A DNA stretch of 64,000 nucleotides, taken from the NCBI GenBank assembly GCA_025463005.1, contig JAOAPR010000097.1, positions 62,001 through 126,000 of the forward strand. The letters are read 5' to 3'. The notes below the pieces were generated by a model. That model searched no databases, was not told the origin of the DNA, and saw only the letters and a program-made list of their open reading frames with translations. This DNA is from Bryobacterales bacterium (GTDB taxonomy: Bacteria > Acidobacteriota > Terriglobia > Bryobacterales > Bryobacteraceae). A program made the translations under genes and the position numbers. Positions within the stretch are counted from its first letter, which is position 1. Each line of letters opens with the position of its first letter. Shown here piece after piece: positions 5,610 through 25,984 of the stretch.

Positions 5610-5612
5610 CGA

Positions 5613-6464: not shown

Positions 6465-6503
6465 GTGCCGTGCGTCCATTTTGACGTAGGATGGAACGTC
6501 GCC

Positions 6504-7069: not shown

Positions 7070-7120
7070 TGAAATTTCGACTGCCGCGCGTCACGCCGCA
7101 ATACTCAACAAGGAGTGTTG

Positions 7121-7174
7121 ATGGCCATCGCGACCGGCAGGTCCCGTTCCCAGGTCGCGGCAAATGCTTGTTAA
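7121..7174 (+). CDS. Possible 17-residue peptide with strong ribosome binding site
   Basis: AAGGAG at 7110-7115 stands 5 bases before ATG; the frame encodes MAIATGRSRSQVAANAC then TAA. It could be the truncated front of a lost gene or a leader peptide. No family is recognised. Confidence 0.2.
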   Translation: MAIATGRSRSQVAANAC

Positions 7175-7223
7175 TGGGTGAGAATGATCAGGGCGTATGC
7201 GTCCCTTATGTTGGAGCGGTTCG

Positions 7224-8141: not shown

Positions 8142-8160
8142 GGTTATGGTTACGATAACC
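8142..8160. repeat. Small inverted repeat before the HEPN-like gene
   Basis: On the minus strand GGTTA-TCG-TAACC forms a 5-bp palindrome followed by ATAACC, right before the first ATG of the HEPN-like gene. It could be an operator or a small hairpin affecting start choice; it is too short to be sure. Confidence 0.25.
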
Positions 8161-8237
8161 CGATTGATCCTTCAAGAGCCCGTGGAGGCGCCCTTCCTCT
8201 GACAATCCTGCTCGCGCGGCCTGACGCGACCACCGCG

Positions 8238-11200
8238 CTAGCGATAGATGTCACTGAGCCGGTACGTCAATTGATGGGCACTCGGCCATCCTACGCGGAC
8301 AAACACATCAAGTATTTCCATGAGCACCGCGTGGCATTCGGGATTGTCTCGCAACAGGGGCCGATATTCCGCGAGATAACGCTCGACGATGCGCACGATG
8401 ACTTGTTCTCCGAGCTGTTCGTATTGATATCCGTGGGCGCTGCTTGCTCTCACGACCTGCCCAATCAGCAGAAGAACCTCGGCCGGATCGACGGGCACGA
8501 AATAGGCGAGAGTTTCGATCACCTGATGCGCGGTATGCGGATGCCACATCGATGCAAGCTTTTTGAGAAGCGGCTGCACGAGATGGTAGAACTCCGGCTC
8601 GACGGGCAGCGGGCTGTCTTTGTCCGCGCTAGATGCACCGGAAATCAGGTAAACGCGCAACGCGATTTCATCCGCTATCCTGAAAAGCTCGCCGTATTGC
8701 TCCTGTTCCGCCTCAGGCCATGTGCCGAGAGGCTTGCCGCTGAAGCGGGCCTCCATTTCTTGCGCAGCAACCACCGACGCATCCAGAATGCGTTCGAGGA
8801 GCGCGGCGGAGGTCTTGCGGGTTTCCTCCTTTTCGTCCTTGAGGAAGCCGCTCAAATCGAAAACCACATGCCGCAGGTCGCGCGCATGCTGCGACGGCGC
8901 TGCGATCATCCGCTCGATGACGGCTCCGCTGAGCGATTCCTTGTACCAAACCATCAAGCTGATAAAGATATTGCTGCATTGGTCGCGAGCTTCCGTAACG
9001 CGGTTCCCGTCGAAGGGCATCCGGTCGAAGATATTCAGCGTGAGGCCTGCGACTTTCGGCGGGTCGACGGACGCGGCCCGTTGCAAGACGCCGAGTGTCG
9101 CCTGAAGCACTTCTCTATGCTCTTCCTTTTGCGAGAACTGCTCAAGAAACTGCCACATGAGGTCGCGTTCCGTGTGGTAGAGGTCAAGAAGACGATAGGC
9201 GATCTGGAACCGGACGCTCGCGACGGGGTCTGCCGCAAGTTGGACGATAACCGGTCGAAGCTCAGTCGCCATGTCGGGGTCGCGGCGGGCCAACCGCATA
9301 AGAGCCTGCGCGCCCTCGATACGCGGCGCATTGAACGAAATCGCTTCTTCGGTATCATTACCTTGTTGGGTGTCAGGCTCAGGCTGGCTGTCGCCAACGG
9401 CGCCCAGAACGATGCTTCTGATGAGCGCGAGCGTTTCCTGGTCCCATTTATATTCATTGCTCCGCAGAATGACGGCGGCGGTCTGGACGAGGTCAACGAA
9501 GCCCTGATTGCGGAGTTCCTGATGCACCTGCTGAAGCGCAACCGCCTCCGCATTGAGTGCGCGAACTATTGGAAGAATGGCTGCAATGCGGTCAGGCGGT
9601 GGCGCCCCGTTGAGGAATTCGCTATTAAACGCGCCGAGCGGCCGCATGAGGTTGCGAAGTCGCTGATGTTCCGGATCTTCCAAGGGAACGCCCTTATCTC
9701 GTAGGTACTCTTCCGGGTCGAATTCTCCTCCACCATCGGTGACCACGATGCCTCGGTCAGGCCTGTTCTCGGGCGGCCCCCCGCTTGAGTCCAAGGCATC
9801 CCGACGGGCGGTCGCCTCCGGAGTAATGAAAAGGGTGCGGTGGATGCAGCCCAGCAAGCGGTCGCGCGTCCTGTTCGCAGCCTCGACGCGCTCGGCAATC
9901 GCCTTGGTGGGAATTCCCATGATCGCTTGCTCGACTTGGGCCTTTTCAGTTTGGTCCAGCAGCGGGTAAATGGCTTTGATAAACGCGCCTGCTAAGCGCG
10001 TCGTGTCACTCTCGGTGAGAATGGAGTCGTCCCAGGCGAGCGAGCGAATTGAGCGCCCGATGGTCGTTGGATGCTTGGTTCCGGTCGAGAGCAGAACCCG
10101 CCAAATCGCAGCCGGTGGTTGATGCGCTGCGACATCCTGCACAAGCTGTTGAATAAGGCCCGCATCCGTCTGGGCTTCCAAATAACGCTCGAACGCCTGG
10201 AGCATTTTGAGCGGATTGTCATTTTGCGAAACACCGTTTGCCCATATGGCGCTCCCGTCGCGGATAAGGCTACTTTGGCATCCGTCGAGACTGACGGGCA
10301 TAGTGCCGTCTGCGAATTTTTTCTTGGCCTTGACGTAATGGCCAGTGATGTTCAGGAGCGCATCAAGGGCCTGTCGTGGGGCGGCGGTAAGGAAATGCGG
10401 AAAATACTCGCCAAGTTTCCACAAGCCGCTCTCGTAATCCTGTTTTCGATTGGAAAACATCGGGAGAATCTGGCTGTCCCCCATTGTCGTCTTGGCGTCG
10501 CTCTTGTCGGCATTTTCAAATCCGGCTACGTACAGGTCGCGGACGAATTGGGGATTGACAGTCATGAGAGATACCGCGTTCCGGGAGAGTGCCGGGAATA
10601 TACGGTAGCCGTGCTCTCGCAGGTAGTCTGCCGAGAGGCACTGGCGGAGGACAGAAACGGAAGCGGTGGGGTCGCTTTCGACCGTCTTGGTCACGGCGGC
10701 GATGCAATTCACTGCGAGCAACCAGTTGAAAGGCGTCGTCTGAAGAGAAAATGCTAGAAGGCGTCGCGCAACCGCGCCGACGCAATTCTTGTCGCGCTCG
10801 CTCAGGCGCGCCGTGTTTTCGCTCAGGAAGATAACATAGGGCCGTACCGCATGACTGAGGGGGACCGTGACGTTGGCCGTAGTGAGATCAAGGAACTCCG
10901 CCCACGGTCCGGGACGAGGCCGCCCTGTGGCCGTGCCATGCGTCAGCAGCGTAGCGAGGATGTGTTGAAGCGCGGCTATACCGGTCGCTGAGCGGGAAGG
11001 ATCGTCAAGGCAGTTGGCCAACGGCTGAGTCTGAGCGAGCGTCGTGGCGTGAAGCGCGACCACGCTCGGACCGAGGAGCTTGCCAACTTCGTTGAGAGGC
11101 GAAGTCAACGCGCGGAACGTGAGGTCCCAGAAGGCCGCCAAATCCCGGTGCCAGAGCCTCTGCAAATGTATCTCGATGCTGGGCCGAATCGCGATGAGAA

Positions 11201-13106: not shown

Positions 13107-13251
13107 TTAAATCTCTTTCGGAAAATGCGTATACCCCGGAATGCACTTATACGCACCCGCCGCTCAGATGGATCAGAAGAATTATTGTCCCATCGCTTGT
13201 TGCGAGATGTCGCCTGGTTCGGCAGCCGAAGAGACCGGAGCCCCCGAAGAT

Positions 13252-13527
13252 CTATCGTTCGAAGCAATCGACGTTTCGCTGCGTGTCGATGTTTTGAACC
13301 TCGTCGACAACAATGCAGGAGTCGTCGCGCCGGGTTTCGAAGCGGCTTGACATGCCACAGCCCGCGGCGATGACAGTGAACATTAAAACCACGAACATAA
13401 ACCTCCCACGTCTCGTGTTCCGGGTGGAACGTATCCTGGGGACGTTCGCATGAGACGTCCGATAATCTTCCGGACGGGAGGGAGGTTCGATGATCGTTCC
13501 GGGACTCAGCAGCGCGAAATAAATCAT
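13252..13527 (-). CDS. Possible small lipoprotein or membrane peptide
   Basis: A 91-residue frame with a good ribosome binding site (AGGAG six bases before the ATG at 13527). Internally it reads MFVVLMFTVIAAGCG, a hydrophobic segment with a lipobox-like AAGC, followed by a short polar tail. The first 40 residues are basic and Pro-rich, unusual ahead of a signal peptide, so translation may begin at the internal Met. It lies upstream of the NTPase gene, near the right end of the defence island. Confidence 0.35.
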   Translation of the reverse strand: MIYFALLSPGTIIEPPSRPEDYRTSHANVPRIRSTRNTRRGRFMFVVLMFTVIAAGCGMSSRFETRRDDSCIVVDEVQNIDTQRNVDCFER

Positions 13528-13586
13528 GGTTGACTCCTATGGATACGAAACCGTGCCGTCGCCAGTGACGAAAGGCCAAACAGATT

Positions 13587-13774
13587 TTTGTACCGATTTT
13601 GTACCGAGGCCCTGCTTTTGAGGCCTTTGATGACTTCGACGACTTCTTAGAATCAATAAGTTATAGAACTTCAGAAACCTGTCAAGTTCGTGGTTCGAGC
13701 CCATGCCGGGGAGCCAAACCTTTTGTTTCAGTGAGTTATAAACGATTTTTGGGATGGCTGTACGGATTTTGTAC
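13587..13774 (+). repeat. att-like site 1: tRNA 3' end with arm repeats
   Basis: The core 13681-13716 is a tRNA 3' end: T arm CGTGG/TTCGAGC/CCATG, acceptor strand CCGGGGA, discriminator G, CCA. The arm TTTGTACCGATTTTGTACC starts at 13587, 94 bases before the core. The other arm TGTACGGATTTTGTAC is at 13759-13774. Core and both arms recur at site 2, and core plus left arm at site 3, with the same spacing. The 5' part of the tRNA is absent. This is the pattern left by integrases that target tRNA 3' ends; it separates the defence island from the redox cassette. Confidence 0.8.
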
Positions 13775-13898
13775 ACCGGTTCGCTTCTCGTAAATAGTTG
13801 CTGCGATAGCCCTTAGGTGTCAGGGCATGGATTTCAAAATCGAATCTACGTCAAGACGCTACCGCCCCCTTCGCCGACGGAAACTTCAGCCGACAACA

Positions 13899-14783
13899 CT
13901 ACAGCCGAAGAGTGTTGATCAACGCAGACAGCGCGGCCGGTTGCTGGCGTCGGCTCGGGTAATAAAGAAAGAATCCGGGAAACGGTTGGCACCAATCCTC
14001 CAGTACGCGGATGAGCTCGCCGCTCGCCAGAGGCTGAGCAACTTTATCCTCCCCTACGAAAGCGATGCCTATGCCATCAAGGGCGGCGCGGATAACGATC
14101 TCTACGTCGTCAACGATGAGCGGGCCGTTAACAGCAACGGAGAGGGAGTTTTTACCTTTGTCGAATTCCCATCGGTAAATGCCTGCCGTTCCATGCCGGA
14201 AGTTGATGCAGCGGTGCTTAAGCAGATCGTGCGGCGTTTTCGGCTTCGGATGCGCTTTAAAATATGCGGGCGAGCCCACGATGGCCGCGCGATGATCCTT
14301 GGACACCCGGACCGCGATCATGTCCTTCTGGATGTATTCGCCGAAATGAATACCTGCGTCGAAGCCCCCTGCCACGATGTCGAGGCGGCTGTCGTCAGCG
14401 GTGATATCGAGCACGACGTCGGGATAATCGCGCGTAAACGTCGCCAGTTTCGGACCGAGGACGGCGGTTCCGGCAACGCGTGGCACCAGCAATCGCAGGC
14501 GGCCCGCGGGCTTGTCGCGTAAGCCGGAAAGTTCGCCCAGGACATCCTCGACGTCGTTTAGCGCCGGGCGCAAGCGCGTCAGGAGCAGCTCACCCGCTTC
14601 GGTGGGCGCGACGCTGCGCGTCGTGCGTGAGAGGAGACGCACCCCTAAATCCTCCTCCAATCCCCGGATGGCGTGGCTCATGGCCGAGGGAGAGACGCCC
14701 AACCGTTTGCCCGCCTTGGTAAAGCTACGTTCCTCAGCGACCGCAAGGAAAACGGCCAAAGTGCTGAGATCGCTTCGTTCCAT
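13899..14783 (-). CDS. LysR-family transcriptional regulator
   Basis: A 294-residue regulator with the LysR winged helix-turn-helix at residues 1-62 (FTKAGKRLGVSPSAMSHAIR; LEEDLGVRLLSRTTRSV) and a substrate-binding domain from about 90 to the end. The subgroup features (RLLVPRVAGTAVLGP, DAGIHFGEYIQKDMIAVRVS) match LysR members that control short-chain dehydrogenase or oxidoreductase genes. It is divergent from the SDR gene with 172 bases between them, the usual arrangement for regulating the neighbouring operon and itself. The inducer is unknown. Confidence 0.92.
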   Translation of the reverse strand: MERSDLSTLAVFLAVAEERSFTKAGKRLGVSPSAMSHAIRGLEEDLGVRLLSRTTRSVAPTEAGELLLTRLRPALNDVEDVLGELSGLRDKPAGRLRLLVPRVAGTAVLGPKLATFTRDYPDVVLDITADDSRLDIVAGGFDAGIHFGEYIQKDMIAVRVSKDHRAAIVGSPAYFKAHPKPKTPHDLLKHRCINFRHGTAGIYRWEFDKGKNSLSVAVNGPLIVDDVEIVIRAALDGIGIAFVGEDKVAQPLASGELIRVLEDWCQPFPGFFLYYPSRRQQPAALSALINTLRL

Positions 14784-14955
14784 TTGTGAATACCTCTCAT
14801 AAGCCTTTGTCTTTAATACATACTACTCAAAAACGCCATTCGGGCATACCTTGGAGTTGAGGGATGAGGAAGGCGTTGGAAAAGACGGGCATCGAAGAGA
14901 TGGGACGCACTCCTGGTTTCGTAAAACGCGTCGCCTCAGAAAAAAGGATTAGGTT
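14784..14955. promoter_or_regulatory. Divergent LysR/SDR intergenic control region
   Basis: This 172-base gap holds both 5' ends of the divergent pair. The part next to the LysR start is AT-rich (around 14795-14832), suiting a LysR-type operator. AGGATTAGG before ATG 14956 is the SDR ribosome binding site. No exact operator can be proved by eye. Confidence 0.4.
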
Positions 14956-15717
14956 ATGAACTTGTCGTTTGAAAACAAAGTCGCACTCGTCACCGGAGCT
15001 GCCTCTGGCATGGGCCTCGCTACGGCGGAGGCATTTGCTGCTGCCGGCGCAGCCGTGGCGCTCGTCGATATCAACGAAGCCGCGGTGCGGAAAGTCGCGG
15101 ACCGACTTGCTGGCGACGGATATAAAACCACCGCCATACCTTGCGATGTTACCGATGAAGCCCAGGTCAAAAGGATGATCGAACAGACCGTGTCTGCATT
15201 CGGGCGCCTGGATGCTGCGTTCAACAATGCCGGCGTGCAGAGTCTTGCGGTTGAAACCGCCGATTCGACCAGCGAAGAGTTCGACCGCGTGAATGCAATC
15301 AATCTCAAGAGCGTGTGGCTCTGCATGAAATACGAATTGCTTCAGATGCGCAAGCAGGACGGTGGCGCGATCGTGAACAATTCTTCCATCGGAGGCCTCA
15401 TCGGCATTCCAGGCCGGGCCATCTACCATGCCACCAAACACGGCGTCATTGGGCTAACGAAGAGCGCTGCCCTTGAATATGCGGCGCGAGGCATCCGCAT
15501 CAATGCCATATGCCCCGGCGCCATCGAAACGCCTATGGTTGCGGCCATGGTCGCCAAAGAGCCGGAAACGATGAAAGACATCCTGAAGGAACAACCAATC
15601 GGGCGGCTCGGCAAAGCTGAGGAGATTGCTTCGGCTGTGCTGTGGCTTTGCAGCCCCGGCGCAGGCTTCGTGATCGGACACGCGCTCGCTATCGACGGCG
15701 GATATACGGCACGTTAG
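14956..15717 (+). CDS. Short-chain dehydrogenase/reductase (SDR)
   Basis: NAD(P)-dependent oxidoreductase of the classical SDR family, 253 residues. Cofactor motif TGAASGMG near 12-19, NNAG near 89, catalytic Ser in NNSSIGG and Tyr/Lys in YHATK near 156-160, then PGAIETPM. Asp in LVDI after the second strand suggests a preference for NAD(H). It is the first gene of a plus-strand set (SDR, cupin, CMD, tautomerase, two alcohol dehydrogenases, SDR). The substrate is unknown. A fragment of a close paralogue survives at about 20.0 kb. Confidence 0.92.
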   Translation: MNLSFENKVALVTGAASGMGLATAEAFAAAGAAVALVDINEAAVRKVADRLAGDGYKTTAIPCDVTDEAQVKRMIEQTVSAFGRLDAAFNNAGVQSLAVETADSTSEEFDRVNAINLKSVWLCMKYELLQMRKQDGGAIVNNSSIGGLIGIPGRAIYHATKHGVIGLTKSAALEYAARGIRINAICPGAIETPMVAAMVAKEPETMKDILKEQPIGRLGKAEEIASAVLWLCSPGAGFVIGHALAIDGGYTAR

Positions 15718-15848
15718 TTTTCGTGGCTCGTTGGTCGGCCAAGTGCTCCGGAGAAACTTATGCAAAAGCGTCAAGCGGAAAAAGCAATCCCGAAGTCTCG
15801 GACATCGACACTGGCTGAACGTGGAAGGACCTAGCAAAGGAGTTTGAA

Positions 15849-16259
15849 ATGGAAATAAAGCGAAACGGATCACAACCCTCGCAAAAAGGACCGGACGAAT
15901 ATTTCACCGGAACAGTCCGGGTCGATCCGCTTATCCAGGCCCAGGAACCCTCGCGTGTCGCTGCAGCATCTGTAACATTTGAACCCGGCGCACGCTCCGC
16001 ATGGCACACGCACCCGCTCGGGCAGTCGTTGATCGTGACCGCGGGACTTGGCTGGACCCAATGCTGGGGAGGTCCTATCGAGGAAATCCGGCCCGGGGAC
16101 GTGCTCTGGTGCCCGCCGGGCATCAAGCATTGGCATGGGGCCAGTCCGAAGACCGCCATGACGCACATTGCTATCCAGGAGCAATTGAACGGCAAAAACG
16201 TTGATTGGCTGGAAAAGGTCACCGACGAGCAATACCTGGCTGGCCCCCAGAATAAGTAA
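15849..16259 (+). CDS. Cupin-domain protein
   Basis: A 136-residue single-domain cupin. Motif 1 is [17 protein letters not shown] with metal-ligand His residues, and motif 2 is [22 protein letters not shown] stands in front of the ATG. In many bacteria such cupins sit next to carboxymuconolactone decarboxylase-like genes, as here (14 bases to the next start), and the pair is often LysR-controlled with SDRs; the reaction is not established. The N-terminal [15 protein letters not shown] is repeated in a broken copy at 19949. Confidence 0.88.
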
Positions 16260-16272
16260 TAAGGAGCAGATT

Positions 16273-16638
16273 ATGCCAGATGAACCAGATAACGCGCGCA
16301 AGGCTTTCGGCCACATCGCGCCCGCGCTCGCGGAAATTACCGACAAGGTGCTGTTCGGCGAGGTATGGGAGAGGCCGGGCCTATCGCCGCGCGATCGCAG
16401 CTTGATTACCGTCGCGAGCCTCGTTGCTCTCTATCGCACGAACGAGCTTCCCTTTCATTTGAAGAAGGCACTCCAAAACGGCGTCACTCGGGATGAGCTG
16501 ATCGAGGTCATCACGCATCTGGCCTTCTACTCGGGCTGGCCGACCGCAAATACCGCGCTTCCGATCGCCCAGCGCGTGTTCGACGAGGCCGGAATTGCCC
16601 TTGACCGGCACGAAAACGCAGACCCTGGGAAAAAGTAG
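16273..16638 (+). CDS. Carboxymuconolactone decarboxylase-family protein
   Basis: A 121-residue CMD/AhpD-fold protein. Typical features are FGEVWERPGLSPRDRSLITVA, LPFHLKKALQNGVTRDELIEV and HLAFYSGWPTANTALPIA. The AhpD CxxC pair is missing, so it belongs to the decarboxylase-like branch rather than the peroxidase branch. ATG 16273 is chosen because AAGGAG lies at 16261-16266; a longer upstream frame overlaps the cupin. It is probably translated with the cupin and tautomerase. Confidence 0.9.
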   Translation: MPDEPDNARKAFGHIAPALAEITDKVLFGEVWERPGLSPRDRSLITVASLVALYRTNELPFHLKKALQNGVTRDELIEVITHLAFYSGWPTANTALPIAQRVFDEAGIALDRHENADPGKK

Positions 16639-16644
16639 AGCCTT

Positions 16645-16872
16645 ATGCCCCATGTCATCGTCAAGCTCTGGCCAGGGAAATCAGAACAACAGAAAGCGCG
16701 TCTCGCCGAAAAAATTGCCAAGGACGTGATGGACGTTCTGAATTACGGAGAAGAATCGGTCTCGGTCGGTTTTGAAGAAGTTAAATCACAGGACTGGAAA
16801 GAAAAGGTGTACACCCCGGACATTCAGGCCAAGTGGGACCAGATCTATAAGAAGCCGGCATACGAGATGTGA
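16645..16872 (+). CDS. 4-oxalocrotonate tautomerase-family protein
   Basis: A 75-residue tautomerase. Pro directly follows the initiator Met ([20 protein letters not shown]), giving the N-terminal catalytic proline once Met is removed; the helix and second strand ([15 protein letters not shown]) fit the family. It begins 6 bases after the CMD stop. Together with the CMD and cupin it suggests handling of keto/enol intermediates, possibly from aromatic or unsaturated compounds. Confidence 0.88.
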
Positions 16873-16912
16873 AGCGTTGCAATCGAAAGCATATGAAAGG
16901 CAGGACAAGACA

Positions 16913-17932
16913 ATGAAGGGAACAGTTCTTTACGGACCCGGCGACATTCGGTTCGAAGACCGCGAGACGCCGAAGATTGTCGAACCAACGGACGCGCTCC
17001 TCCGCCTCACCGCGACCTGTGTCTGCGGATCAGACTTGTGGCCGTACCGCGGCTTGCAGCCAATCGACGGACCGACGCCGATGGGCCATGAGTACTGCGG
17101 CTTCGTCGAAGAGGTCGGCAGCGCGGTCAAATCCATCAAGCCGGGGCAATTCGTCGTCGGCTCGTTCGCGACGTCCGACAACACCTGTGCGCATTGCCGG
17201 TACGGTTACCAGTCTTCGTGCGTCCATCGTGAGTTCATGTTGAGGGCGCAAGCGCCGTTTCTGCGTGTGCCTCAGGCGGACGGCACGCTCGTGGCGACGC
17301 CAGGCGGAATTCCGTCCGACGACTTGGTGCCGAGCCTGCTGGCCTGCTCGGACGTACTGGGTACGGGCTGGTTCGCCGCCGATGCGGCAAACGTCAAGCC
17401 GGGAGTGACCGCGGTTGTGGTCGGCGATGGGGCGGTCGGGCTTCTTGGAGTCCTTTCCGCCAAGCAAATGGGAGCGGAGCGCATTATCGCCATGAGCCGT
17501 CACGAATCCCGTCAGAAACTCGCGCGCGATTTCGGCGCGACCGACATCGTCGCGGAGCGCGGCGAAGAGGCGGTGGCCCACATTAAGGACCTGACGAAAG
17601 GCATCGGCGCTGACTCTGTGCTCGAATGCGTTGGCACACAGGAATCGATGATGCAGGCCATCGGCGCCACGCGTCCCGGCGGTTACGTGGGGTATGTTGG
17701 CGTGCCGCACGGTGTCGAGCTCAAGGGCGAGCAATTGTTCTACCGCCACGTACACCTGCATGGCGGCCCCGCCCCGGTCCGGCGCTACCTTCCCAAACTG
17801 ATCGACCTTGTCCTGAGCGGAACAATCAATCCCGGAAAGGTCTTTGACCTGGTGCTCCCGCTGGATCAAGTCGCGGAAGGCTATCGGGCCATGGATGAGC
17901 GGCGCGCGATCAAGGCGCTGCTGCGACCCTAG
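16913..17932 (+). CDS. Zinc-dependent alcohol dehydrogenase (MDR family)
   Basis: A medium-chain NAD(P)-dependent dehydrogenase, 339 residues. Catalytic zinc ligands lie in CVCGSD near 37 and GHEYCG near 58; structural-zinc cysteines lie in CAHCRYGYQSSC near 91-102; the Rossmann motif is VVVGDGAVGLLGV near 165. ATG 16913 gives the canonical MKGTVLYGPGDIRFE start; a longer frame overlaps the tautomerase and is unlikely. Its place in the cassette suggests oxidation or reduction of the same substrate series. Confidence 0.92.
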   Translation: MKGTVLYGPGDIRFEDRETPKIVEPTDALLRLTATCVCGSDLWPYRGLQPIDGPTPMGHEYCGFVEEVGSAVKSIKPGQFVVGSFATSDNTCAHCRYGYQSSCVHREFMLRAQAPFLRVPQADGTLVATPGGIPSDDLVPSLLACSDVLGTGWFAADAANVKPGVTAVVVGDGAVGLLGVLSAKQMGAERIIAMSRHESRQKLARDFGATDIVAERGEEAVAHIKDLTKGIGADSVLECVGTQESMMQAIGATRPGGYVGYVGVPHGVELKGEQLFYRHVHLHGGPAPVRRYLPKLIDLVLSGTINPGKVFDLVLPLDQVAEGYRAMDERRAIKALLRP

Positions 17933-17963
17933 TCACGACACAACGTTTATATAGAGGTTAGAC

Positions 17964-19139
17964 ATGGACCCATTAATTGACAATTCCAAACGAGAGTTTC
18001 TCCTCCGATCCGCAGTCCTGTGCGCAGGCTCGGTTCTTGGGGGCTCGCGCACCCTTTTTGCCCAACAGCCGGCGGCGCAGGGAAGCGGTCCGTATCCGAC
18101 GGAAGGAATGGCCGGGTATTCGGCGACGGGACCGCTTAAAGTGCTCAAGTTCCAGCGTCGGGCTCTCGGCCCGAAAGACGTCGCGATCAGGATTGACTAT
18201 TGTGGCGTGTGCCATTCTGACATTCACACCATCCACGGGGACTGGGGCAAGATCCAGTACCCGCAAATCGTGGGCCACGAACTCGCGGGGGAGGTCGTAG
18301 CCATTGGCACCGGTGTGAGCAAGTTCGACGTGGGCTCGCGTGTGGGTGTAGGAACGATGGTTGACTCTTGCAGGCATTGCCCCGAGTGCGCGCGCGGAGC
18401 TGAGAACTACTGCGAGAACGGCAACACGCAGACCTATGGGTCGAAAGATCGTGACGGATCGATCACTCAAGGCGGCTATTCGAAATTCATCGTCGTTGAC
18501 GAAGATTTCGTCCTTAGCATCCCGGCTTCAATCGACCTTGCCGAAGCGGGTCCGTTACTATGCGCCGGCGTCACGACCTATTCGCCCCTTCGCCACTGGG
18601 GTGTGGCGCCCGGAAAGAAGGTCGCGATCGCTGGATTAGGTGGTTTGGGACACTTGGCTGTGCAGTTCGCTACCAAGATGGGAGCCGATGTGACGGTGGT
18701 GACGACGTCGCCGGACAAGGTAGAAGATGCGCGCCGCTTTGGCGCAAAAGACGTTCTCATCAACAAAGACGGCGTTGATTTCTCAAAATACAAACGAGCC
18801 TTCGATTTCATTCTGGATACTATTCCCTACCAGCACGACCTGGACCGGTTCATTCCGCTGCTCAAGAGGGATGCAACTCTCTGCCGTGTCGGCGTCGGAA
18901 AACTCACGACGCCAAATCAATACGGCCAGATGACCACGGTACTGACCAGAACTGCCCTCGCCGGCTCAAACACCGGCGGCATTCGTGAGACCCAGGACAT
19001 GCTGGAGTTCTGCGCTGCTCAAAAGATCAAACCCCAGATCACAAAGATACCCATGGGCGGAGTCAACGACGCCTGGTCCAAGGTGATTGCGAAACAGGCA
19101 AGGTACCGTTTCGTTATGGATATGAATATGAACGGCTAA
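17964..19139 (+). CDS. Exported-looking zinc alcohol dehydrogenase (CAD-like)
   Basis: A 391-residue member of the cinnamyl-alcohol-dehydrogenase-like MDR group: CGVCHSD near 79, GHELAGEV near 100, structural-zinc CRHCPECARGAENYC near 134, and Rossmann GLGGLGHLAVQFA near 220. Unusually, the first 36 residues look like a Tat-type signal (SKREFLLRSAV, hydrophobic stretch, then LFAQQ). These enzymes normally use cytosolic NADP(H), so export would be puzzling; the Lys-Arg in place of Arg-Arg also makes the signal weak. It follows the first dehydrogenase by 31 bases. Confidence 0.9.
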   Translation: MDPLIDNSKREFLLRSAVLCAGSVLGGSRTLFAQQPAAQGSGPYPTEGMAGYSATGPLKVLKFQRRALGPKDVAIRIDYCGVCHSDIHTIHGDWGKIQYPQIVGHELAGEVVAIGTGVSKFDVGSRVGVGTMVDSCRHCPECARGAENYCENGNTQTYGSKDRDGSITQGGYSKFIVVDEDFVLSIPASIDLAEAGPLLCAGVTTYSPLRHWGVAPGKKVAIAGLGGLGHLAVQFATKMGADVTVVTTSPDKVEDARRFGAKDVLINKDGVDFSKYKRAFDFILDTIPYQHDLDRFIPLLKRDATLCRVGVGKLTTPNQYGQMTTVLTRTALAGSNTGGIRETQDMLEFCAAQKIKPQITKIPMGGVNDAWSKVIAKQARYRFVMDMNMNG

Positions 19140-19186
19140 CGGGGTACATACACTCTGCGCTCGGATTTTCACAGTTTTGAGGTTGC

Positions 19187-19876
19187 ATGAAAAGAACAAT
19201 TCTTGTTACCGGCGGCAATCGGGGCATTGGCCTTGCCATTGCGCGCCAACTCGCCGAACTTGGGAATGCGGTGCTCCTCGGATCGCGTGATCTCATGGCC
19301 GGCGAAAACGCCGCGAAATCCCTTCGTAGTCTCAACTTCGACGTCGAACCGGTGCATGTTGATCTTAACGATGCGGCAGCGATCGACGACGCCATCACCG
19401 GCATCGGCAAGTCTGGCCGCCAGATCGACACATTGGTCAATAACGCTGGAGTATTGCACGAAAAGCCGCTCCTCGAACTGACGGATGCAGAGATCGGCGA
19501 CTCGATTGCCGCGCACCTGACGGGTCCCCTTCGGCTCATCCGCTTGCTGGCGCCGAACATGATTGCGCGCGGATACGGCCGGATCGTCAATCTCTCATCC
19601 GGCTGGGGGTCATTCGCCGAAGGCATGGGCGGACCCGGCATGTATGGCGTGACGAAAGCCGCGCTGAACGCGCTCACCGTACGGCTCGCGAAAGAGCTTC
19701 CGTCCGCGGTCAAGGTGAACGCGATGTGTCCCGGCTGGGTGCGGACGCGGATGGGCGGAGATGGCGCGATGCGAAGCCCTGAAGAGGCAGCCGATACAGC
19801 AGTCTGGCTCGCGACATTGCCGGACGATGGTCCGACCGGCGGTTTTTTTCGGGACCGAAAGCCAATCGAATGGTGA
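19187..19876 (+). CDS. Short-chain dehydrogenase/reductase (SDR)
   Basis: A 229-residue classical [11 protein letters not shown] near 8, NNAG near 86, catalytic Ser in NLSSGWG and Tyr/Lys in YGVTK near 152, then [10 protein letters not shown]. It is of the carbonyl-reductase-like short type (ASRDL-like second strand, GSRDLMAGE). It lies 47 bases downstream of the exported-looking dehydrogenase. It ends [12 protein letters not shown], a usual C-terminus for this subgroup. Confidence 0.92.
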
Positions 19877-19948
19877 CGACTGACAACCGCTTCCGATGAG
19901 CAGGGCCGCCAAAGGCTAATCAAGCAAAAATGCCAATAGCAAAGGAGA

Positions 19949-20102
19949 ATGAACGTGGAAATCAAGAGATACGGTTCGAAGCCGTCCGGAAAAGGTCCAT
20001 CGGACTGAGGAGATCGCTTCGGCTGTCGCCTGGCTCTGTTCGGATGCGGCCTCATTCATGACAGGACACGCCATGGTCGTCGACTGCGGACAAACGGTGT
20101 AA
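19949..20102 (+). pseudogene. Chimeric debris: cupin start joined to SDR end
   Basis: From ATG 19949, preceded by AAAGGAG, the frame reads MNVEIKRYGSKPSGKGPSD then stops at 20006-20008; this mirrors the cupin start [19 protein letters not shown]. From 20004 another frame reads TEEIASAVAWLCSDAASF and ends GHAMVVDCGQTV with TAA at 20100-20102, mirroring the SDR end (KAEEIASAVLWLCSPGAGF...GHALAIDGG). So a second cupin-SDR unit, with the cupin first, lost everything between these points in one deletion. Neither part can be functional. Confidence 0.75.
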
Positions 20103-20132
20103 GCCACCGGCAATGTAAACGTGGAGAGTTCA

Positions 20133-20657
20133 ATGACCATGCAGAGATTTTCGCCTCACACCCGAACTGGAGCGCGAATGACCGGATCGAGCCCCGCGCA
20201 TTCTGGAGAGAGAAACCTGCATTTGACCGTGCTTATGCTGGCAGCTTGCCTCGTGCTTGGTTTAATTCCGCAGCAAGCTTCTTCTGAAGGGACACCTGAC
20301 ATGAAAATCAACATAACTGTCTCCGGCAAGACCGTGACTGCGACGATCATGGACAACCCGACCGCAAAGGACTTCGTTTCTCTGCTTCCCTTGACCATGT
20401 CTATGAAGGACCTCTTCGGGCGGGAGAAGTTCGGCCATTTGCAAAGAGCGCTTTCAGGAAAGGGTCCGCGCACGAGCACGTATGAGGTTGGCGACATCGC
20501 CTACTGGTCTCCGACTCACGATTTCGCGGTTTACTACCACCAGGATGGGGAGACGATTCCGTCGCCAGGAATTATACCGATCGGAAAAATCAAAGGTGGC
20601 GCGGAAGTCTTCAACGTGCCTGGCTCTGTGGAAGTGACCATTGAGATTGCCAAATAG
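20133..20657 (+). CDS. Secreted cyclophilin-like fold protein
   Basis: A protein of 174 residues from ATG 20133, chosen because GGAGAG lies just before it. A hydrophobic segment (LTVLMLAACLVLGLIPQQAS) near 30-50 looks like a signal peptide, though the charged region ahead of it is long. The mature part (MKINITVSGKTVTATIMDN, DFVSLLPLTMSMKDLFGREK, DIAYWSPTHDFAVYYHQDG) matches the bacterial cyclophilin-like family, small beta-barrels of unproven activity often found beside oxidoreductases. Its leader GTGGAGAGTTC-ATG is almost identical to that of the next gene. Confidence 0.85.
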   Translation: MTMQRFSPHTRTGARMTGSSPAHSGERNLHLTVLMLAACLVLGLIPQQASSEGTPDMKINITVSGKTVTATIMDNPTAKDFVSLLPLTMSMKDLFGREKFGHLQRALSGKGPRTSTYEVGDIAYWSPTHDFAVYYHQDGETIPSPGIIPIGKIKGGAEVFNVPGSVEVTIEIAK

Positions 20658-20720
20658 AGGTTAGCTAGGCGCAGGCCGCCGGACAAGGTGATAACCAGGG
20701 TTTCAAATGTGGAGAGTTCG

Positions 20721-21713
20721 ATGAGTATGCAGCGTGTGATCGTCAATGTCTTCGGCGGACCGGACCAGTTGACGGTTGAAGAAGTGACCGAACCGCTGCG
20801 GCTGGGTCCGGGGCAACTGCTCATTGATGTGGAAGCAGCAGGCGTCAACTACCTTGACATATATCAGCGTAAAGGCCTCTCGCCGGTTTCGCTGCCCTTC
20901 ACACCGGGATTGGAGGGCGTCGGGCGGGTGCGCGAGATTGGCGAAGGCGGCGCCCGCAACAGTCTTGCCGTCGGAGACCGGGTGGCATGGATCAATTCGC
21001 CCGGAGTCTATGCTAGTCAGGTCCTTGTCCCCGCTGCAGAAGCGATTCCTGTGCCACAGGCCTTTACGACGGCGCAGGCTCTCCTGTTCCAGGGCATCAC
21101 GGCGCAGTACCTTGTGAGCGAATACCGCATGGTGCGTCCTGGCGACCGGGTGCTCGTCCACGCGGCGGCGGGCGGCGTTGGGCAACTCCTGGTTCAATGG
21201 CTCAAGCATCTCGGAGCCTGGGTCGTCGGCACCACATCCAGTGATGTCAAAGCAGCCGCTATTCGCGCCGTTGGCGCAGACGCTGTCATCAACTACGGAC
21301 AGGATTACGGGTTCCTAGACGAGTTGCTGTCGTTGACAGGCGGGAATGGTGTGGACCTTGCCTTCGATGCTGTCGGCGCGGCCACTCTCGCGACAACACT
21401 GAAAGCGCTGGCAAGAGGCGGGACCGCCGTTTCCTACGGCTCGGCATCGGGACCTCCGCCTGCCATCGAACCGCGGCAGCTTGTTCCGAAGTGCGCGCGC
21501 CTCGCCGGCGCGGCGCTTTTCACTTATGTCGCCGACCCCTCCGAGCTTCAGCGGCGCGCAGCGGTCGTTGTGGATGCAATCCAGTCCGGCTGGCTGCGCA
21601 TGGGCGAAGGGACGGCCTACGCGCTCGCAGACGTCGCAGAAGCGCACCGCGCCATCGAAGGGCGCGGAACACAAGGCAAGCTTTACCTCACGCCGAAACC
21701 GAAAACACCGTAA
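20721..21713 (+). CDS. Quinone oxidoreductase-type MDR enzyme
   Basis: An NADPH:quinone reductase-like protein of about 330 residues. The zinc-free MDR pattern is clear: AGVNYLDIYQRKG near 37, PGLEGVGRV, and Rossmann HAAAGGVGQLLVQWLKHLGA near 140. ATG 20721 is preferred over the upstream start at 20688 because GGAGAG precedes it by 4 bases and because the 24-base start region repeats that of the cyclophilin-like gene at 21 of 24 positions. It fits one-electron-safe reduction of quinones or enones in a detoxification cassette. Confidence 0.92.
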   Translation: MSMQRVIVNVFGGPDQLTVEEVTEPLRLGPGQLLIDVEAAGVNYLDIYQRKGLSPVSLPFTPGLEGVGRVREIGEGGARNSLAVGDRVAWINSPGVYASQVLVPAAEAIPVPQAFTTAQALLFQGITAQYLVSEYRMVRPGDRVLVHAAAGGVGQLLVQWLKHLGAWVVGTTSSDVKAAAIRAVGADAVINYGQDYGFLDELLSLTGGNGVDLAFDAVGAATLATTLKALARGGTAVSYGSASGPPPAIEPRQLVPKCARLAGAALFTYVADPSELQRRAAVVVDAIQSGWLRMGEGTAYALADVAEAHRAIEGRGTQGKLYLTPKPKTP

Positions 21714-21737
21714 ACACAAGCACCGCAGGAAGTCGAA

Positions 21738-22418
21738 ATGAGACCCCACATTATTTGCCACATGCTCTCCTCCGTGGATGGGAAGATCGATGGCGCGTCT
21801 CTCAAAGCGGTCACCACTCCGGTGGACTACGAGGCAACCGGCACGAAGCTCGAAGGCGACGCCTGGGTCTGCGGGCGCACAACCATGGAACAGCACTTCG
21901 CTGAGGATGAGCCCTTCTTGTCCGCGTCGAACCGTCCCGCAGGACCGCAGCCGGTGCACGTCGCGCGCAAGGCGAAATCGTATGCGATCTCTGTTGACAC
22001 CACCGGCAAACTCCGGTGGGCCAGCGGCGATATTGACGGCGATCACCTAATTTGCATTGTGAGCGAACGCGCGCCGGACGACTATCTTTCGATGCTCGGG
22101 GACACTGGCATCTCTTACGTCGTGGCCGGCAAGTCCGCGGTTGACCTTGTCAAAGCCGTGAACCTACTCGGCGAGCACTTTGGAATTCGGCGGTTGCTGC
22201 TCGAAGGCGGCGGTCACATCAATGGCGCATTCCTCCAGGTGGGCCTTGTCGATGAAGTGAGCCTGTTGCTGGTGCCGGGCATCGACGGACGTCGCGAAAT
22301 TCCGGCGGTTTTCGACGGCATGGACTCCGCACGTAAAGCCGCTGTCCCGCTCAAACTCAAATCGATAGAACGCCGCGATAAAGACGCGCTCTGGCTTCGG
22401 TACGAAGTTGTCCGGTGA
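21738..22418 (+). CDS. RibD C-terminal / dihydrofolate reductase-fold protein
   Basis: A 226-residue stand-alone reductase domain of the RibD-C family. Key features are HMLSSVDGKIDG at the N-terminus, WVCGRTTMEQH near 45, and the nucleotide-binding LLLEGGGHINGAFLQVGLVDE near 155. Such proteins use NADPH; the true substrate is usually unknown outside riboflavin synthesis, and no deaminase domain or rib genes are nearby. It ends the redox set. Confidence 0.9.
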   Translation: MRPHIICHMLSSVDGKIDGASLKAVTTPVDYEATGTKLEGDAWVCGRTTMEQHFAEDEPFLSASNRPAGPQPVHVARKAKSYAISVDTTGKLRWASGDIDGDHLICIVSERAPDDYLSMLGDTGISYVVAGKSAVDLVKAVNLLGEHFGIRRLLLEGGGHINGAFLQVGLVDEVSLLLVPGIDGRREIPAVFDGMDSARKAAVPLKLKSIERRDKDALWLRYEVVR

Positions 22419-22563
22419 ACGCCCGCATCGACAAAACAGCCGTCCAGCTTTGGATCACACGCGCCCAGCTTGCCAAACACGGCGTAGTGTCTTTATACAA
22501 ATAATATAAATATGGCATCCGATTAGCCTTACGCCTGTGTTAACCATCTAGACCAAAACATAT

Positions 22564-22592
22564 TTGACATAATCGCGCGAATCGCATATAAA
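22564..22592 (+). promoter_or_regulatory. Strong sigma-70-type promoter
   Basis: TTGACA at 22564-22569, exactly 17 bases, then TATAAA at 22587-22592, close to the ideal housekeeping promoter. It lies in an otherwise gene-free gap (22419-22790) and would drive the two small genes from 22791, leaving a leader of nearly 190 bases. No riboswitch was recognised in that leader. Confidence 0.55.
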
Positions 22593-22790
22593 TGATTCCA
22601 CGCAAGGCGTATTACCACGGCGCGTCGGTTTCCACTTGTTTCACGACCGCCGGTAGATCGCGCCACCTGCAAAAACAACCTTCGTTGTCGCTTCTTTGTT
22701 GCGATGTTTGCGATGGCGGCCCCGGGTTGTTTGCATCTCGCCGACGCGAACATCCATTCGTTGTTAACGTTTAACGCGTTGAGGAGAACT

Positions 22791-22976
22791 ATGCCCTACG
22801 TACACGGACGCAATCCCGCAGACGTCAAAACGGATCGTTTGCTTCGCAAGATCTTCGGCCTTCAGCCAAAGCCCACGATGGCGAAAGTAGCGATGCCGAA
22901 ACCGGTGAAGATTCCCCAGCCTGCGAACCAGATCACGGTAAAATTCCCGGATTCCCGCCAGGAAACGTCGCGTTGA
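22791..22976 (+). CDS. Small Pro/Lys-rich protein of unknown function
   Basis: A 61-residue protein (MPYVHGRNPADVKTDRLLRK start) with a good GAGGAG site before the ATG. The middle is rich in Lys-Pro (MAKVAMPKPVKIPQPAN). No family is recognised. Its TGA overlaps the TTG start of the repeat-protein gene, so the two are translationally coupled. The near-consensus promoter upstream suggests strong expression. Confidence 0.6.
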   Translation: MPYVHGRNPADVKTDRLLRKIFGLQPKPTMAKVAMPKPVKIPQPANQITVKFPDSRQETSR

Positions 22977-23836
22977 AAAGCATCTTTGCAAAATCTTCCC
23001 GCCGCTCCAAAGCGGAGACTACCCTGAAACGTTTGGGGATAGAGTACGAGAAGCGTCCCGATGGCACCCTGTTCGTGCCGGGAGACGTGCATCTCTCATG
23101 CAAGGGCTTGGGCTCGCTTCCAGACCTGTCCTCCGTTGCAGTTGGCGGTTCATTCCATTGCGACACCAATAAGCTGACTTCGCTCCGAGGCGCTCCGCAG
23201 ACCGTCGGGGGCAGTTTCAATTGCATCGCCAACCAGCTGACCTCACTTGAAGGCGCACCGCGCGATATTGGACTGGATTTTAATTGCGGCTACAACCAGC
23301 TGACCTCGCTCGAAGGTGCACCCCATTCAGTTGGTTGTTCCTTCAGCTGCGACGGCAATAAACTGACCTCGCTCAAAGGCGCCCCCTTTACGGTAGGAAG
23401 TTTCTTCAGTTGCGGCCATAATCATTTGACCTCGCTTGAAGGCGCACCGCAGACCGTCGGGGGCGACTTCACCTGCTGTGGCAACAAGCTGACGTCGATG
23501 GCAGGAGCCCCGCGCATCGTCAGGGGCGACTTCGTTTGCCATGATAACAAGCTGACGTCGCTGGACGGCGCTCCGTCTTCCGTGGGCGGCAGGCTCATTT
23601 GCTGCCACAATGAGCTTGCTTCGCTTGTCGGCGACCCGATGAAAGTCGAGAGCGCCCTCGATTATTATTCCTGGGCCGCAGTGAAGGAAAGGTTGCGCAT
23701 GGCGCCCGTGATCCTGGCGCGGCAGGGACAACCAGACTTAGACGAGATGACGGCGCTGCAGAAACCACTAACGGTCAAAAAGCCGCTCAGCCTGAAAACG
23801 TCGCGCGGACGGCAGCCCCACTGGTGGAGTCGCTGA
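22973..23836 (+). CDS. Phage-type leucine-rich repeat protein
   Basis: A 287-residue protein with TTG start overlapping the previous stop. After a short N-terminal region (LKRLGIEYEKRPDGTLFVPG), residues 66-230 consist of eight 21-residue repeats of the form N-x-LTSL-x-GAP-x2-VGG-x-F-x-C. This Leu/Cys repeat is common in phage and prophage genomes, where its job is unclear; binding of a host or phage protein is likely. The C-terminal 55 residues are basic and unrelated. It lies inside an integrated element, which fits a mobile origin. Confidence 0.8.
   Translation: MKSIFAKSSRRSKAETTLKRLGIEYEKRPDGTLFVPGDVHLSCKGLGSLPDLSSVAVGGSFHCDTNKLTSLRGAPQTVGGSFNCIANQLTSLEGAPRDIGLDFNCGYNQLTSLEGAPHSVGCSFSCDGNKLTSLKGAPFTVGSFFSCGHNHLTSLEGAPQTVGGDFTCCGNKLTSMAGAPRIVRGDFVCHDNKLTSLDGAPSSVGGRLICCHNELASLVGDPMKVESALDYYSWAAVKERLRMAPVILARQGQPDLDEMTALQKPLTVKKPLSLKTSRGRQPHWWSR
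23168..23655 (+). repeat. 63-bp coding tandem repeat (LRR units)
   Basis: About eight in-frame units of 63 bases, each encoding a 21-residue leucine-rich unit with central LTSLxGAP. Units differ at many positions, so the array is old rather than a recent slippage product; the last unit (NELASLVGDP) is degenerate. Confidence 0.8.
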
Positions 23837-23837
23837 C

Positions 23838-24232
23838 ATGGTTTTCGCTTTCAAAAAGCCGCCGACCGAATCCCGGCAAGCCCTGAAAGAATGGGGCATA
23901 CCCTACAAAAATCGCTGGGACGGAACGCTGTTCGTGCCGGGACAGTCGATGGTGCGCTCCGGATATATAGCACTCCGCAACTTGAACAGCGCTTGGCCGC
24001 GGGGCATGTCAGGCACGCCGGAAAGACCGGTGTGCGGCGGAAGATCTTCCGGATTGATGCACCCATCGACCGCGACGCCTTCAGCCTTGTCGCTCAAGCC
24101 TTCTTCATCTGGAACGATGACCTGAAAACGTATTTCAGCGAAACGCTGCCGGTCAAGCCATGGAAATCTTTGTACCGATTTTGTACCGAGACCCTGCTTT
24201 TGATGCCTTTGAGGACTTCAGTGACATTGTAG
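23838..24232 (+). pseudogene. Frameshifted paralogue of the repeat protein's N-terminal region
   Basis: From ATG 23838 the frame reads LKEWGIPYKNRWDGTLFVPG, matching LKRLGIEYEKRPDGTLFVPG of the upstream repeat protein, but then loses sense. A second frame becomes protein-like from about 23970 (IYSTPQLEQRLAAGHV, then APIDRDAFSLVAQAFFIWND) and runs to TAG near 24232 inside att site 2. No LTSL repeats are present. A frameshift, perhaps with deletion, lies around 23940-23970. A real programmed shift is less likely. Confidence 0.55.
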
Positions 24233-24355
24233 AATCAATAAGTTGTGATGGTGCAGAATCTTGTCAAGTTCGTGGTTCGAATCCATGCCGGGGAGCCAAC
24301 CTTTGAATTCAATAGTTTAGAAGACCGCTGCTATTTTTCTGTACGGATTTTGTAC
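24169..24355 (+). repeat. att-like site 2: tRNA 3' end with arm repeats
   Basis: Core 24263-24298 matches site 1 at 34 of 36 positions and has the T loop TTCGAAT. The left arm TTTGTACCGATTTTGTACC starts at 24169, again exactly 94 bases before the core; the right arm TGTACGGATTTTGTAC is at 24340-24355, 42 bases after it (43 at site 1). Similarity continues to a GCATGGATT...AAAATCGAATC block at 24412-24432, as at 13825. It separates the redox cassette from the 1 kb segment. Confidence 0.8.
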
Positions 24356-24511
24356 CGCGCGTCGATAGCACGCGGCGTGAACTCACTGACGCTATTAGAT
24401 GAGCGCGCTGAGCATGGATTCGAAAATCGAATCCGACAAATGCAATGACGCGTTGAGAGGTTTGCCGCCCAGCGGCTTCCAATAGGCCCTGTACGTGTCA
24501 TAGGATTCCCA

Positions 24512-25027
24512 TCATCTCCGGGAACCACGCACACATAGCGCTCTCTTGTTGGTGTAGAACCAGAGTTCGTCACCGTTGAAAACCCGCCCTTCGTTGAAAT
24601 CGAAGCGTGACGCATACCCTGAAGGACGCCCTCGATCATCCAATAAACGAGTACTGCTCCATTGATTACCGGTCAAGAACAAGTTCCCCTTTACGTGAAA
24701 TGTGAAAGGTCTACCTGCACCTGGGCCGGCTCGTCCTCGTGCGGTGGCGTTCTTGTCGTAGATTCCTTCCAGCTCCCCGATCGCTGCGAGCCGCCAGTCA
24801 GAGTACCCGGCCAATCGCAGATCGCGGCAGTACTTCATCGCCTTGTTCCAACTCAGGTCTTTACCGTTGTCGCTCCCGGCCCACATGAGTCCAGTAGAGG
24901 GATCGGTCCAATACCCGCTGGCTTGAGTTTCCTGTGCGTGCCCGTGTTCCGCCGCGGAGGACAGGCCCCAGGCGATCATGGCGGCAGCGAATAGCGGCAC
25001 CTGGACAAGCTTCGATGGCCGGTTCAT
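24512..25027 (-). CDS. Exported DUF1566 protein
   Basis: A protein of 171 residues from ATG 25027, chosen because GGAGCAGG precedes it and a signal peptide then follows (VPLFAAAMIAWGLSSAAEHG, cut near HAQ). The mature part has WTDPSTGLMWAGSDNGKDLSW, KYCRDLRLAGYSDWRLA and ELEGIYD, the DUF1566/Lcl pattern of secreted, possibly surface-binding C-type-lectin-like domains. It is the only gene in a 1 kb segment between two att-like sites, so it may be cargo of a minimal mobile element. Confidence 0.85.
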   Translation of the reverse strand: MNRPSKLVQVPLFAAAMIAWGLSSAAEHGHAQETQASGYWTDPSTGLMWAGSDNGKDLSWNKAMKYCRDLRLAGYSDWRLAAIGELEGIYDKNATARGRAGPGAGRPFTFHVKGNLFLTGNQWSSTRLLDDRGRPSGYASRFDFNEGRVFNGDELWFYTNKRALCVRGSRR

Positions 25028-25202
25028 GATGCCTGCTCCAAATTTGAGAAAGGACGAGACGCCGTATTGCAAGAGCTCACCATGTCGAGGATCTTCAACG
25101 GAAGATCGGTTTGCATTACGTTTAGTAAAACACAACGCTCGTCCATTGCAGGATGTCTACGCTCCCAGGGCAGGACTGTGGGAGAACGGCGAAACTTTCT
25201 GA

Positions 25203-25330
25203 TGTACCGATTTTGTACCAGGTGCTTGCTTTTGATGCTTTTGACGACTTCAGTGTCTTTGTGAAATCAATAAATTATGCAACATCTAAAGCCCGTCAAT
25301 AATGTGGTTCGAATCCATGCCGGGGAGCCA
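25203..25330 (+). repeat. att-like site 3: end of the tRNA-linked array
   Basis: Left arm TGTACCGATTTTGTACC starts at 25203 and the core 25295-25330 ends with the same tRNA 3' sequence (GGTTCGAATCCATGCCGGGG then AGCCA). Arm-to-core spacing is again 94 bases. No arm repeat follows the core, unlike sites 1 and 2, which suggests the chromosome resumes here, as expected of the distal attR. Confidence 0.75.
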
Positions 25331-25474
25331 CGAAATCCGGTGGGAATCCACCCTGGGGTCAAAGCACGCTCTCGCCGTGAAGCGTCCGCTTTGGCGCAAG
25401 ATCCTTTGGCATTTCCCGATCGTTTGCGATCGCAGAGCCGAAGAATCAAATTGCGTGGGACACTCGAAGATTGA

Positions 25475-25984
25475 ATGGACGACCATCGGCCACTTTGCAC
25501 CTCGCTTCTAGCGAAGATCCACGAGCAATTCGAGCGAACCGGCCACCTGATCAACCTCCTTCCGGCAGACCGGCTGGACTGGTCGCCGGCCATTCCGGGT
25601 ACTTGGCCACTGGGTATGCTCCTTGGTCATCTCCTCGATTGCGCGGCCGGATTCTGCGCAGCTCTGGCCGCTTTCGAACCTCAGCGTCTGGCCCATTTCG
25701 CCCAACTCCGGGAACTACCGGTGAATCACCGCTGCTCGCCTGCGGAGGCCGCTAGCCGAATGGTGATTTATCAGGGACACGTCGAGGATGGCTTCGCGCG
25801 GCTTACCGACGTTGACCTCGGCCGGCAACTGTCCACCGTCTTCGTGAACCAGGGGGAAAGTCTTCTGACTCTGCTATTGGGGAATCTGGAGCACCTCATC
25901 AACCACAAGCACCAGTTGTTCACGTACTTGAAGCTGCTAGGCGTGGAGGTGACCAGCCGGGATCTTTATCACTTTCGCGGATAG
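25475..25984 (+). CDS. DinB-superfamily protein
   Basis: A 169-residue four-helix protein of the DinB/YfiT metalloenzyme-like superfamily. The helix with LLGHLLDCAAGF near 50 and the later NLEHLINHKHQL near 140 supply the His residues that bind a metal in this family. Members include thiol transferases and stress proteins; the role here is unknown. It is the first gene after the last att-like site and so probably backbone. There is no strong ribosome binding site. Confidence 0.85.
   Translation: MDDHRPLCTSLLAKIHEQFERTGHLINLLPADRLDWSPAIPGTWPLGMLLGHLLDCAAGFCAALAAFEPQRLAHFAQLRELPVNHRCSPAEAASRMVIYQGHVEDGFARLTDVDLGRQLSTVFVNQGESLLTLLLGNLEHLINHKHQLFTYLKLLGVEVTSRDLYHFRG

Follow-up and report, generated by a model that had tools for sequence, protein, structure and literature searches.

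The DNA studied here is a window of 64,000 nucleotides from a Bryobacterales bacterium (the whole stretch that was analysed, bases 62001–126000 of the 149,808-bp contig C235 in a 6.36-Mb draft genome), and it contains the right part of an array of three elements, E1, E2, and E3, at the 3' end of a tRNA-Gln(UUG) gene. E2 and E3 are probably non-autonomous cassettes that are moved by E1-type integrases of helper elements. By sequence comparison, both belong to a cassette family that spans several genera and has a left end of its own.

The array is marked by three sites whose cores (window 13692–13716, 24274–24298, and 25306–25330) agree with the 3' end of a tRNA-Gln(ttg) gene. The complete gene, with the 5' end TCCCCGG, lies at C235:28142–28215, 33.9 kb left of the window, and an integrase open reading frame (ORF) follows it directly. 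A first-pass annotation, made from the letters of the window, had recognized the three sites as tRNA 3' ends and had predicted both a full tRNA gene with this 5' end and a tyrosine recombinase to the left, and all of this was found. The arm TGTACCGATTTTGTACC starts at window 13589, 24171, and 25203 (sites 1, 2, and 3), and GGTTCGA begins 103 nt after the arm start at every site, as expected from the fixed spacing described earlier. The right-hand arm TGTACGGATTTTGTAC is present at window 13759 and 24340, starting 43 nt (site 1) and 42 nt (site 2) after the last core base, and was not found at site 3 in an arm search of the window, which is also how the annotation had described it. Five arm matches at up to two mismatches were counted in the window versus 0.02 expected, and with TGTACSGATTTTGTAC at up to one mismatch, these five arms are the only matches in the whole 6.36-Mb genome. 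The sites do share a core, but the length of 36 bp given for it did not hold: the stretch common to the three sites and the tRNA is ~27–29 bp, site 1 differs at two bases, and sites 1 and 2 have a longer common stretch with each other than either has with site 3. Because the inner sites hold both arms and the outer right site holds the left arm only, the layout supports the order attL-E1-site1-E2-site2-E3-site3 (attR), that is, the stack of three elements at one tRNA gene proposed earlier. Between the tRNA gene and site 1, we found no further core at up to three mismatches and no right end with the right-end model described below.

The arm pattern was first searched in 200 genomes of the same family, where it occurs at up to one mismatch in 29 (reversed control, 6/200). 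We then ran two models on 237 family genomes, a right-end model (R1) built from 13 aligned sequences and a left-end model (R2) built from 11. R1 matches 40 of the 237 genomes at E ≤ 1e-3, the weak matches including bare tRNA ends and diverged right ends, and 23 right ends in 17 genomes reach at least 60 bits. R2 matches 18 of the 237; at a cutoff of 40 bits, it finds 20 left ends, which come from 12 genomes of nine genera. The models' own training sequences account for 13 of the 23 right ends and 11 of the 20 left ends. When pairwise identity is averaged in 50-bp blocks, the 18 right ends compared score 0.71 and 0.70 inside and 0.18–0.22 outside, and the 20 left ends score 0.57, 0.38, and 0.44 in the blocks of their first 150 bp and 0.18–0.20 further on. 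Thus, conservation stops at both cassette ends, leaving a left end of ~150 bp and a right end of ~133 bp around mostly different cargo within one acidobacterial family.

Pairing left and right ends gave 13 complete units of 590 bp to 10.6 kb in nine genomes of eight genera: E2 and E3, three units in G068, two in G030, and one each in G104, G093, G012, G202, G003, and G034. Five of them (those of G104, G012, G093, and G003, and the first of G068) lie directly behind a full tRNA-Gln sequence. The 590-bp unit of G034 has a diverged core and no ORF of 60 amino acids. When the nine cassette genomes were searched with PF00589, all matches fell outside the 13 units, and tblastn with the integrases of E1 and of a tRNA-Phe site found nothing inside the units. 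On C235, the sole PF00589 match is at 28860–29387, in E1; the two elements lying wholly in the window were already thought to be without an integrase, and no match was found in E2 or E3.

Within the window, the elements and their ends are all given on the forward strand. The right part of E1 occupies 1–13716 (the whole of E1 is C235:28216–75716, 47.5 kb) and ends with site 1, its right end, at 13586–13716 (arm 13589–13605, core ~13690–13716; R1, 117.2 bits). E2 is an integrase-less cassette of 10,582 bp with redox cargo (13717–24298). Its left end spans 13717–13864 (arm 13759–13774, inverted core copy 13825–13837; R2, 87.9 bits), and its right end, site 2, spans 24168–24298 (arm 24171–24187, core to 24298; R1, 120.5 bits). 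E3 is a one-gene cassette of 1,032 bp (24299–25330), with a left end at 24299–24445 (arm 24340–24355; R2, 89.2 bits) and a right end, site 3 or the outer attR, at 25201–25330, where the right-hand arm is absent (R1, 109.1 bits). The DNA that resumes after the array is at 25331–25984. Elsewhere in the same genome, a further strong right end (117 bits) is found at C121:1588–1717 on the reverse strand of a 4-kb contig (L067), with an altered, more divergent arm and the core CCATGTCGG. Additionally, a bare core with one mismatch is present at C299:7594.

The left ends of the cassettes have a feature that sets them apart. At ~100–126 nt from the CCA, they carry an inverted copy of the tRNA T-loop core, GCATGGATTCGAA, which in E3 is at window 24412 with hairpin z scores of −3.8 and −4.3. 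At up to three mismatches, this copy is present in 20/20 cassette left ends, a partly circular count in that 11 were used to train R2 and the rest were found with it, versus 0/13 left ends of integrase-bearing elements, a count that is not circular. Other features are seen in both classes: a TCAATAA-type motif in 16/20 cassette and 12/13 integrase left ends, and a GTAC pair at 40–45 and 52–58 nt after the CCA in 16/20 and 9/13, respectively. We also considered whether the whole left end is a palindrome and rejected this except for the inverted core: of 11 left ends, only 2 have an inverted inner TTCAATAA motif whose score is hardly ever reached after shuffling (by 0 and 4 of 500 mononucleotide shuffles).

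We infer that the inverted core is an extra core-type site for the integrase. In 7 of 12 stretches, it folds as single-stranded DNA into a hairpin with a z score of −4.0 or lower, and this fold would also suit a transcription stop that shields the cargo from read-through of the tRNA-Gln promoter and is no recombination signal. Stem-loops after the tRNA were proposed as a potential terminator in ICEKp1 (PMC13023037). However, termination would not require the near-exact reverse copy of 13 nt of the tRNA core that is present here, the 12 stretches show no T-run after the hairpin, and 5 of them fold weakly. We therefore consider a terminator somewhat unlikely.

Candidates for the helper were sought among relatives of the E1 integrase, which are present at 30 loci in 29 of the 237 genomes (E ≤ 1e-25). 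ARAGORN places a tRNA-Gln beside the integrase in 12 of the 30 loci, and G049 adds a tRNA-Gln end at a contig edge. Such an end is beside the integrase in 13 of 18 loci at 39% identity or more versus none of the 12 less similar loci. The same type of right end follows both the E1 integrase (117 bits) and the 71%-identical, truncated integrase of G049 (122 bits), and the integrase of G105 (48–50% identity) is followed by a weak right end of 40 bits. When 12 integrase loci (L235–L246), several on short contigs, were scanned with R1, the only right end beyond the tRNA end was that of G105. From these few cases, arms and integrase appear to be matched. An E1-type integrase and a cassette-type left end occur together in the window's own genome (G000), in G049, and in G139 (a 39% fragment). 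Among plasmid records, only distant matches to the E1 integrase were found, all below 60% identity.

Related tyrosine integrases, some of them distant, also lie behind tRNA-Phe, tRNA-Glu, and tRNA-His (L064:10107–11497 in G112, L149, L163, and L165), so the broad group targets several tRNAs. The G112 integrase at tRNA-Phe has 23% identity to that of E1, and TGTACTGATTTTGTACC is found 47 nt after its tRNA.

Next to the array, we compared the DNA of relatives. Three congeners (G119, G186, and G231) keep the left flank and the tRNA-Gln, with ~79% nucleotide identity left of the tRNA. To the right, no element DNA was found beyond the tRNA end over the 4.0, 9.6, and 1.3 kb compared; the third congener was compared with the first part of E1 only. 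The annotation had named conservation of the region in place among relatives as the observation that would oppose its reading, and these three congeners, with other DNA right of the tRNA, speak against such conservation. On the far side of the array, the matches of G231 and G230 to the right flank begin 121 bp (G231) and 298 bp (G230) to the right of the core, and neither has a tRNA or a core beside it. A second comparison gave a similar picture: five congeners of G104 share its left flank, and each has different DNA on the right side of its tRNA-Gln (0.2–6.2 kb compared). The right flank of G104 has no blastn match in these five, and tblastx matches are short and scattered. As the flank is shared on the left but not on the right over the 0.2–9.6 kb compared, the tRNA-Gln site is a hot spot. 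The DNA behind tRNA-Gln in G119 and G186 (L227 and L228) is mutually similar and lacks the family's ends; it is perhaps another kind of element. Furthermore, a stretch of 123–126 bp that is 81–91% identical lies near sites in G030, G049, and G094 (L187:2062–2184, L051 upstream of the left end, and L261:8223–8347).

In wider searches, R1 at E ≤ 1e-6 matches 26 of 257 genomes in the order, a set with only ~20 genomes outside the window's family, and 10 of 399 drawn from the class, and all matches are in the window's own family. The exact right-end pattern matched no viral contig. In GTDB genomes, it gave 10 stretches, 8 of which are not independent of records already counted, under the names Bryobacterales, Solibacteraceae, Acidobacteriaceae, Terriglobia, Acidobacteria gp13, and, once, Verrucomicrobia. 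The Verrucomicrobia-titled stretch matches the right end at 115 bits and is possibly a mislabelled metagenome-assembled genome; the Acidobacteria gp13 stretch has no R1 match.

Taken as cassettes with a helper, E2 and E3 would keep only the two DNA ends that the integrase needs. The right end would consist of the arm TGTACCGATTTTGTACC and ~85 nt before the tRNA 3' end, and the left end of the TCAATAA-type motif, a GTAC arm pair at ~42 and 53 nt, and then the inverted T-loop core. An E1-type integrase, from a resident or incoming helper, would join the right and left ends of a cassette into a circle, which would be inserted at the T-arm of the tRNA-Gln, so that the tRNA is rebuilt and older elements are pushed to the right. 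Transfer from cell to cell would also occur, possibly in cis with the relaxase of E1. We also put forward, as a tentative proposal that may well prove too bold, that these units form a dedicated trans-mobilized lineage, reduced to as little as one gene or none, for which a left end of 150 bp and a right end of 133 bp would be the only defining features. Selection on these ends would keep the units mobile across genera, integrases of passing helpers would stack them at tRNA-Gln in an integron-like exchange of genes based on a tRNA gene, and the inverted core would serve a foreign integrase as a signal specific to the cassettes.

Several points weigh against the proposal that E1-type helpers move the cassettes. 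The match between right end and integrase comes from three cases, which lowers our confidence slightly. Nine of the 12 genomes with cassette-type left ends have no E1-type integrase at E 1e-25; the helper is thus missing in many cases, and part of the cassettes may be stranded relics. A different integrase could also be the helper, with 4–35 PF00589 matches in each of the nine cassette genomes. Recombinases outside PF00589 were covered via Pfam scans of the larger ORFs only, and some members (G034, G068:C45, and G139:C67) have weak cores or arms. An empty site, which the annotation had suggested looking for, did not turn up in clean form in the relatives compared, and no excised circle was found among 21 contigs of 3–16 kb checked for terminal overlaps.

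A competing explanation is that E2 and E3 are decayed integrative mobilizable elements (IMEs), that is, cis-mobilizable elements (CIMEs) that lost the integrase and are moved, if at all, only in cis with an adjacent IME or integrative conjugative element. Accretion of CIMEs is the standard account of such tandems (PMC5704250). As in CIMEs, attL- and attR-type sites are kept in E2 and E3 and the integrase is missing. Their arm spacing is shared with integrase elements, but the left end is of a distinct class. Decay does occur in this family: E1-type integrases are truncated or interrupted in G198, in G109 (where a contig end is also near), and in G049, and G202 has lost the integrase gene beside an integrase-type left end. 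Some units may thus be relics, a further point against movement by helpers. In G202, however, a cassette lies left of the integrase-deleted element, on the tRNA side, with the tRNA itself off the contig. The left ends of the cassettes are a class of their own in carrying the inverted core (20/20, partly circular, versus 0/13), and both ends are conserved across genera around mostly different cargo, which is not expected from independent decay. We regard decay as an unlikely origin for E2 and E3. It is very improbable that the array grew by homologous recombination between the tRNA-Gln 3' repeats with no site-specific recombinase for E2 and E3, as the ~27-bp common core at every array junction would not by itself account for flanking ends that are conserved over ~130–150 bp and keep their arm spacing nearly constant.

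Small cargo units without a recombinase are familiar from integrons, whose cassettes stand in one orientation behind an anchored integrase, IntI, and have a single attC site each. Here, a tRNA gene is the target, arm sites are present at both ends of the unit, and the integrase is part of a mobile element; the two-ended anatomy and the tRNA target argue against integron cassettes. Tycheposons are cargo elements at tRNA genes that use tyrosine recombinases, and we claim no relation to them. Tandem accretion and integrase-less CIMEs are already known; CIMEs (PMC5704250) likewise keep att sites, have no integrase, and stand at the 3' end of a tRNA gene in tandem with an element that bears one. 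Unlike CIMEs, the cassettes form a multi-genus family with a conserved left end of its own, extend down to 0.6–1 kb, and in some cases lie directly behind the tRNA with no adjacent integrase. The ssrA islands of Dehalococcoides (PMC3146451) also stand in tandem, several at a single RNA gene; they insert at the T-loop and have direct repeats, and their integration module is said to be on some islands only. They use a CcrB-like serine recombinase and a tmRNA gene, in contrast to the tyrosine integrase, tRNA-Gln, and conserved two-sided ends seen here. A literature search by title and start of abstract found no publication describing this cassette family. What appears to be new is a multi-genus family of integrase-less units with its own left end.

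The cargo of E2 was identified with Pfam and includes a LysR-type regulator (13899–14783, reverse strand), and, on the forward strand, a short-chain dehydrogenase (14956–15717), two zinc-type alcohol dehydrogenases (16772–17932 and 17964–19139), and a cyclophilin-like protein, a zinc-binding dehydrogenase, and a RibD C-terminal reductase (20121–22418). A cupin is also encoded, and the zinc dehydrogenases total three. The sole sizeable gene of E3 encodes an Lcl_C (DUF1566-type) protein on the reverse strand (24512–25135; PF07603, 55.6 bits). No transfer genes were detected among the Pfam-scanned ORFs, 11 of E2 and 1 of E3.

In the other genomes, the cassettes carry AbiEi/AbiEii with a weak P-loop match; Fic with PhyH or with a 1357-amino-acid helix-turn-helix protein; a weak KaiC-type match; a multicopper oxidase with a chromate transporter and a major facilitator superfamily protein; a molybdopterin oxidoreductase with HPP and ABC proteins; a flavodoxin-fold reductase with AraC; and NHL repeats. 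Some cargo proteins have no match. A few are shared across genera: a Fic protein is 90.5% identical over 368 amino acids between two genera (G068 and G202), and the LysR regulator and short-chain dehydrogenase of E2 match G068 at ~80% and ~61%. The 4.1-kb cassette of G104 (L047:7363–11069) encodes 914- and 321-amino-acid proteins without a Pfam or PADLOC match, which, given the other cargo, are possibly a new defence pair.

Judged from its genes, E1 is an IME, with its own integrase at a specific site and relaxase and mobilization genes. The integrase ORF directly after the tRNA-Gln (L014:6257–7462) matches Phage_integrase at 66.7 bits and has a SAM-like domain. E1 also encodes a MobA/VirD2 relaxase (PF03432), a NikA-like protein, a type IV secretion system coupling protein, a ParB-domain protein, and an ArdC-type antirestriction protein; no mating-pore gene was found among the part of its ORFs that was scanned. 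Its cargo includes a C5 methylase with Vsr, a NO VEIN-domain protein, and a full-length DruE-type protein of 1858 amino acids that crosses the window edge (window 1–3906 and L013:15188–20000). Unmatched ORFs of 735 and 313 amino acids lie beside DruE and are perhaps the rest of a Druantia system. A 1622-amino-acid candidate defence protein (window 8238–13106) matches PDC-M54A, a candidate system of PADLOC, along almost its full length.

The two sequence models can find such cassettes, including cargo that integrase searches would not flag as mobile. Trans-mobilization itself becomes directly testable with one integrase and one mini-cassette. If the proposal is true, soil acidobacteria use cassettes without an integrase, which parasitize tRNA-targeting integrases, to exchange defence and redox genes.

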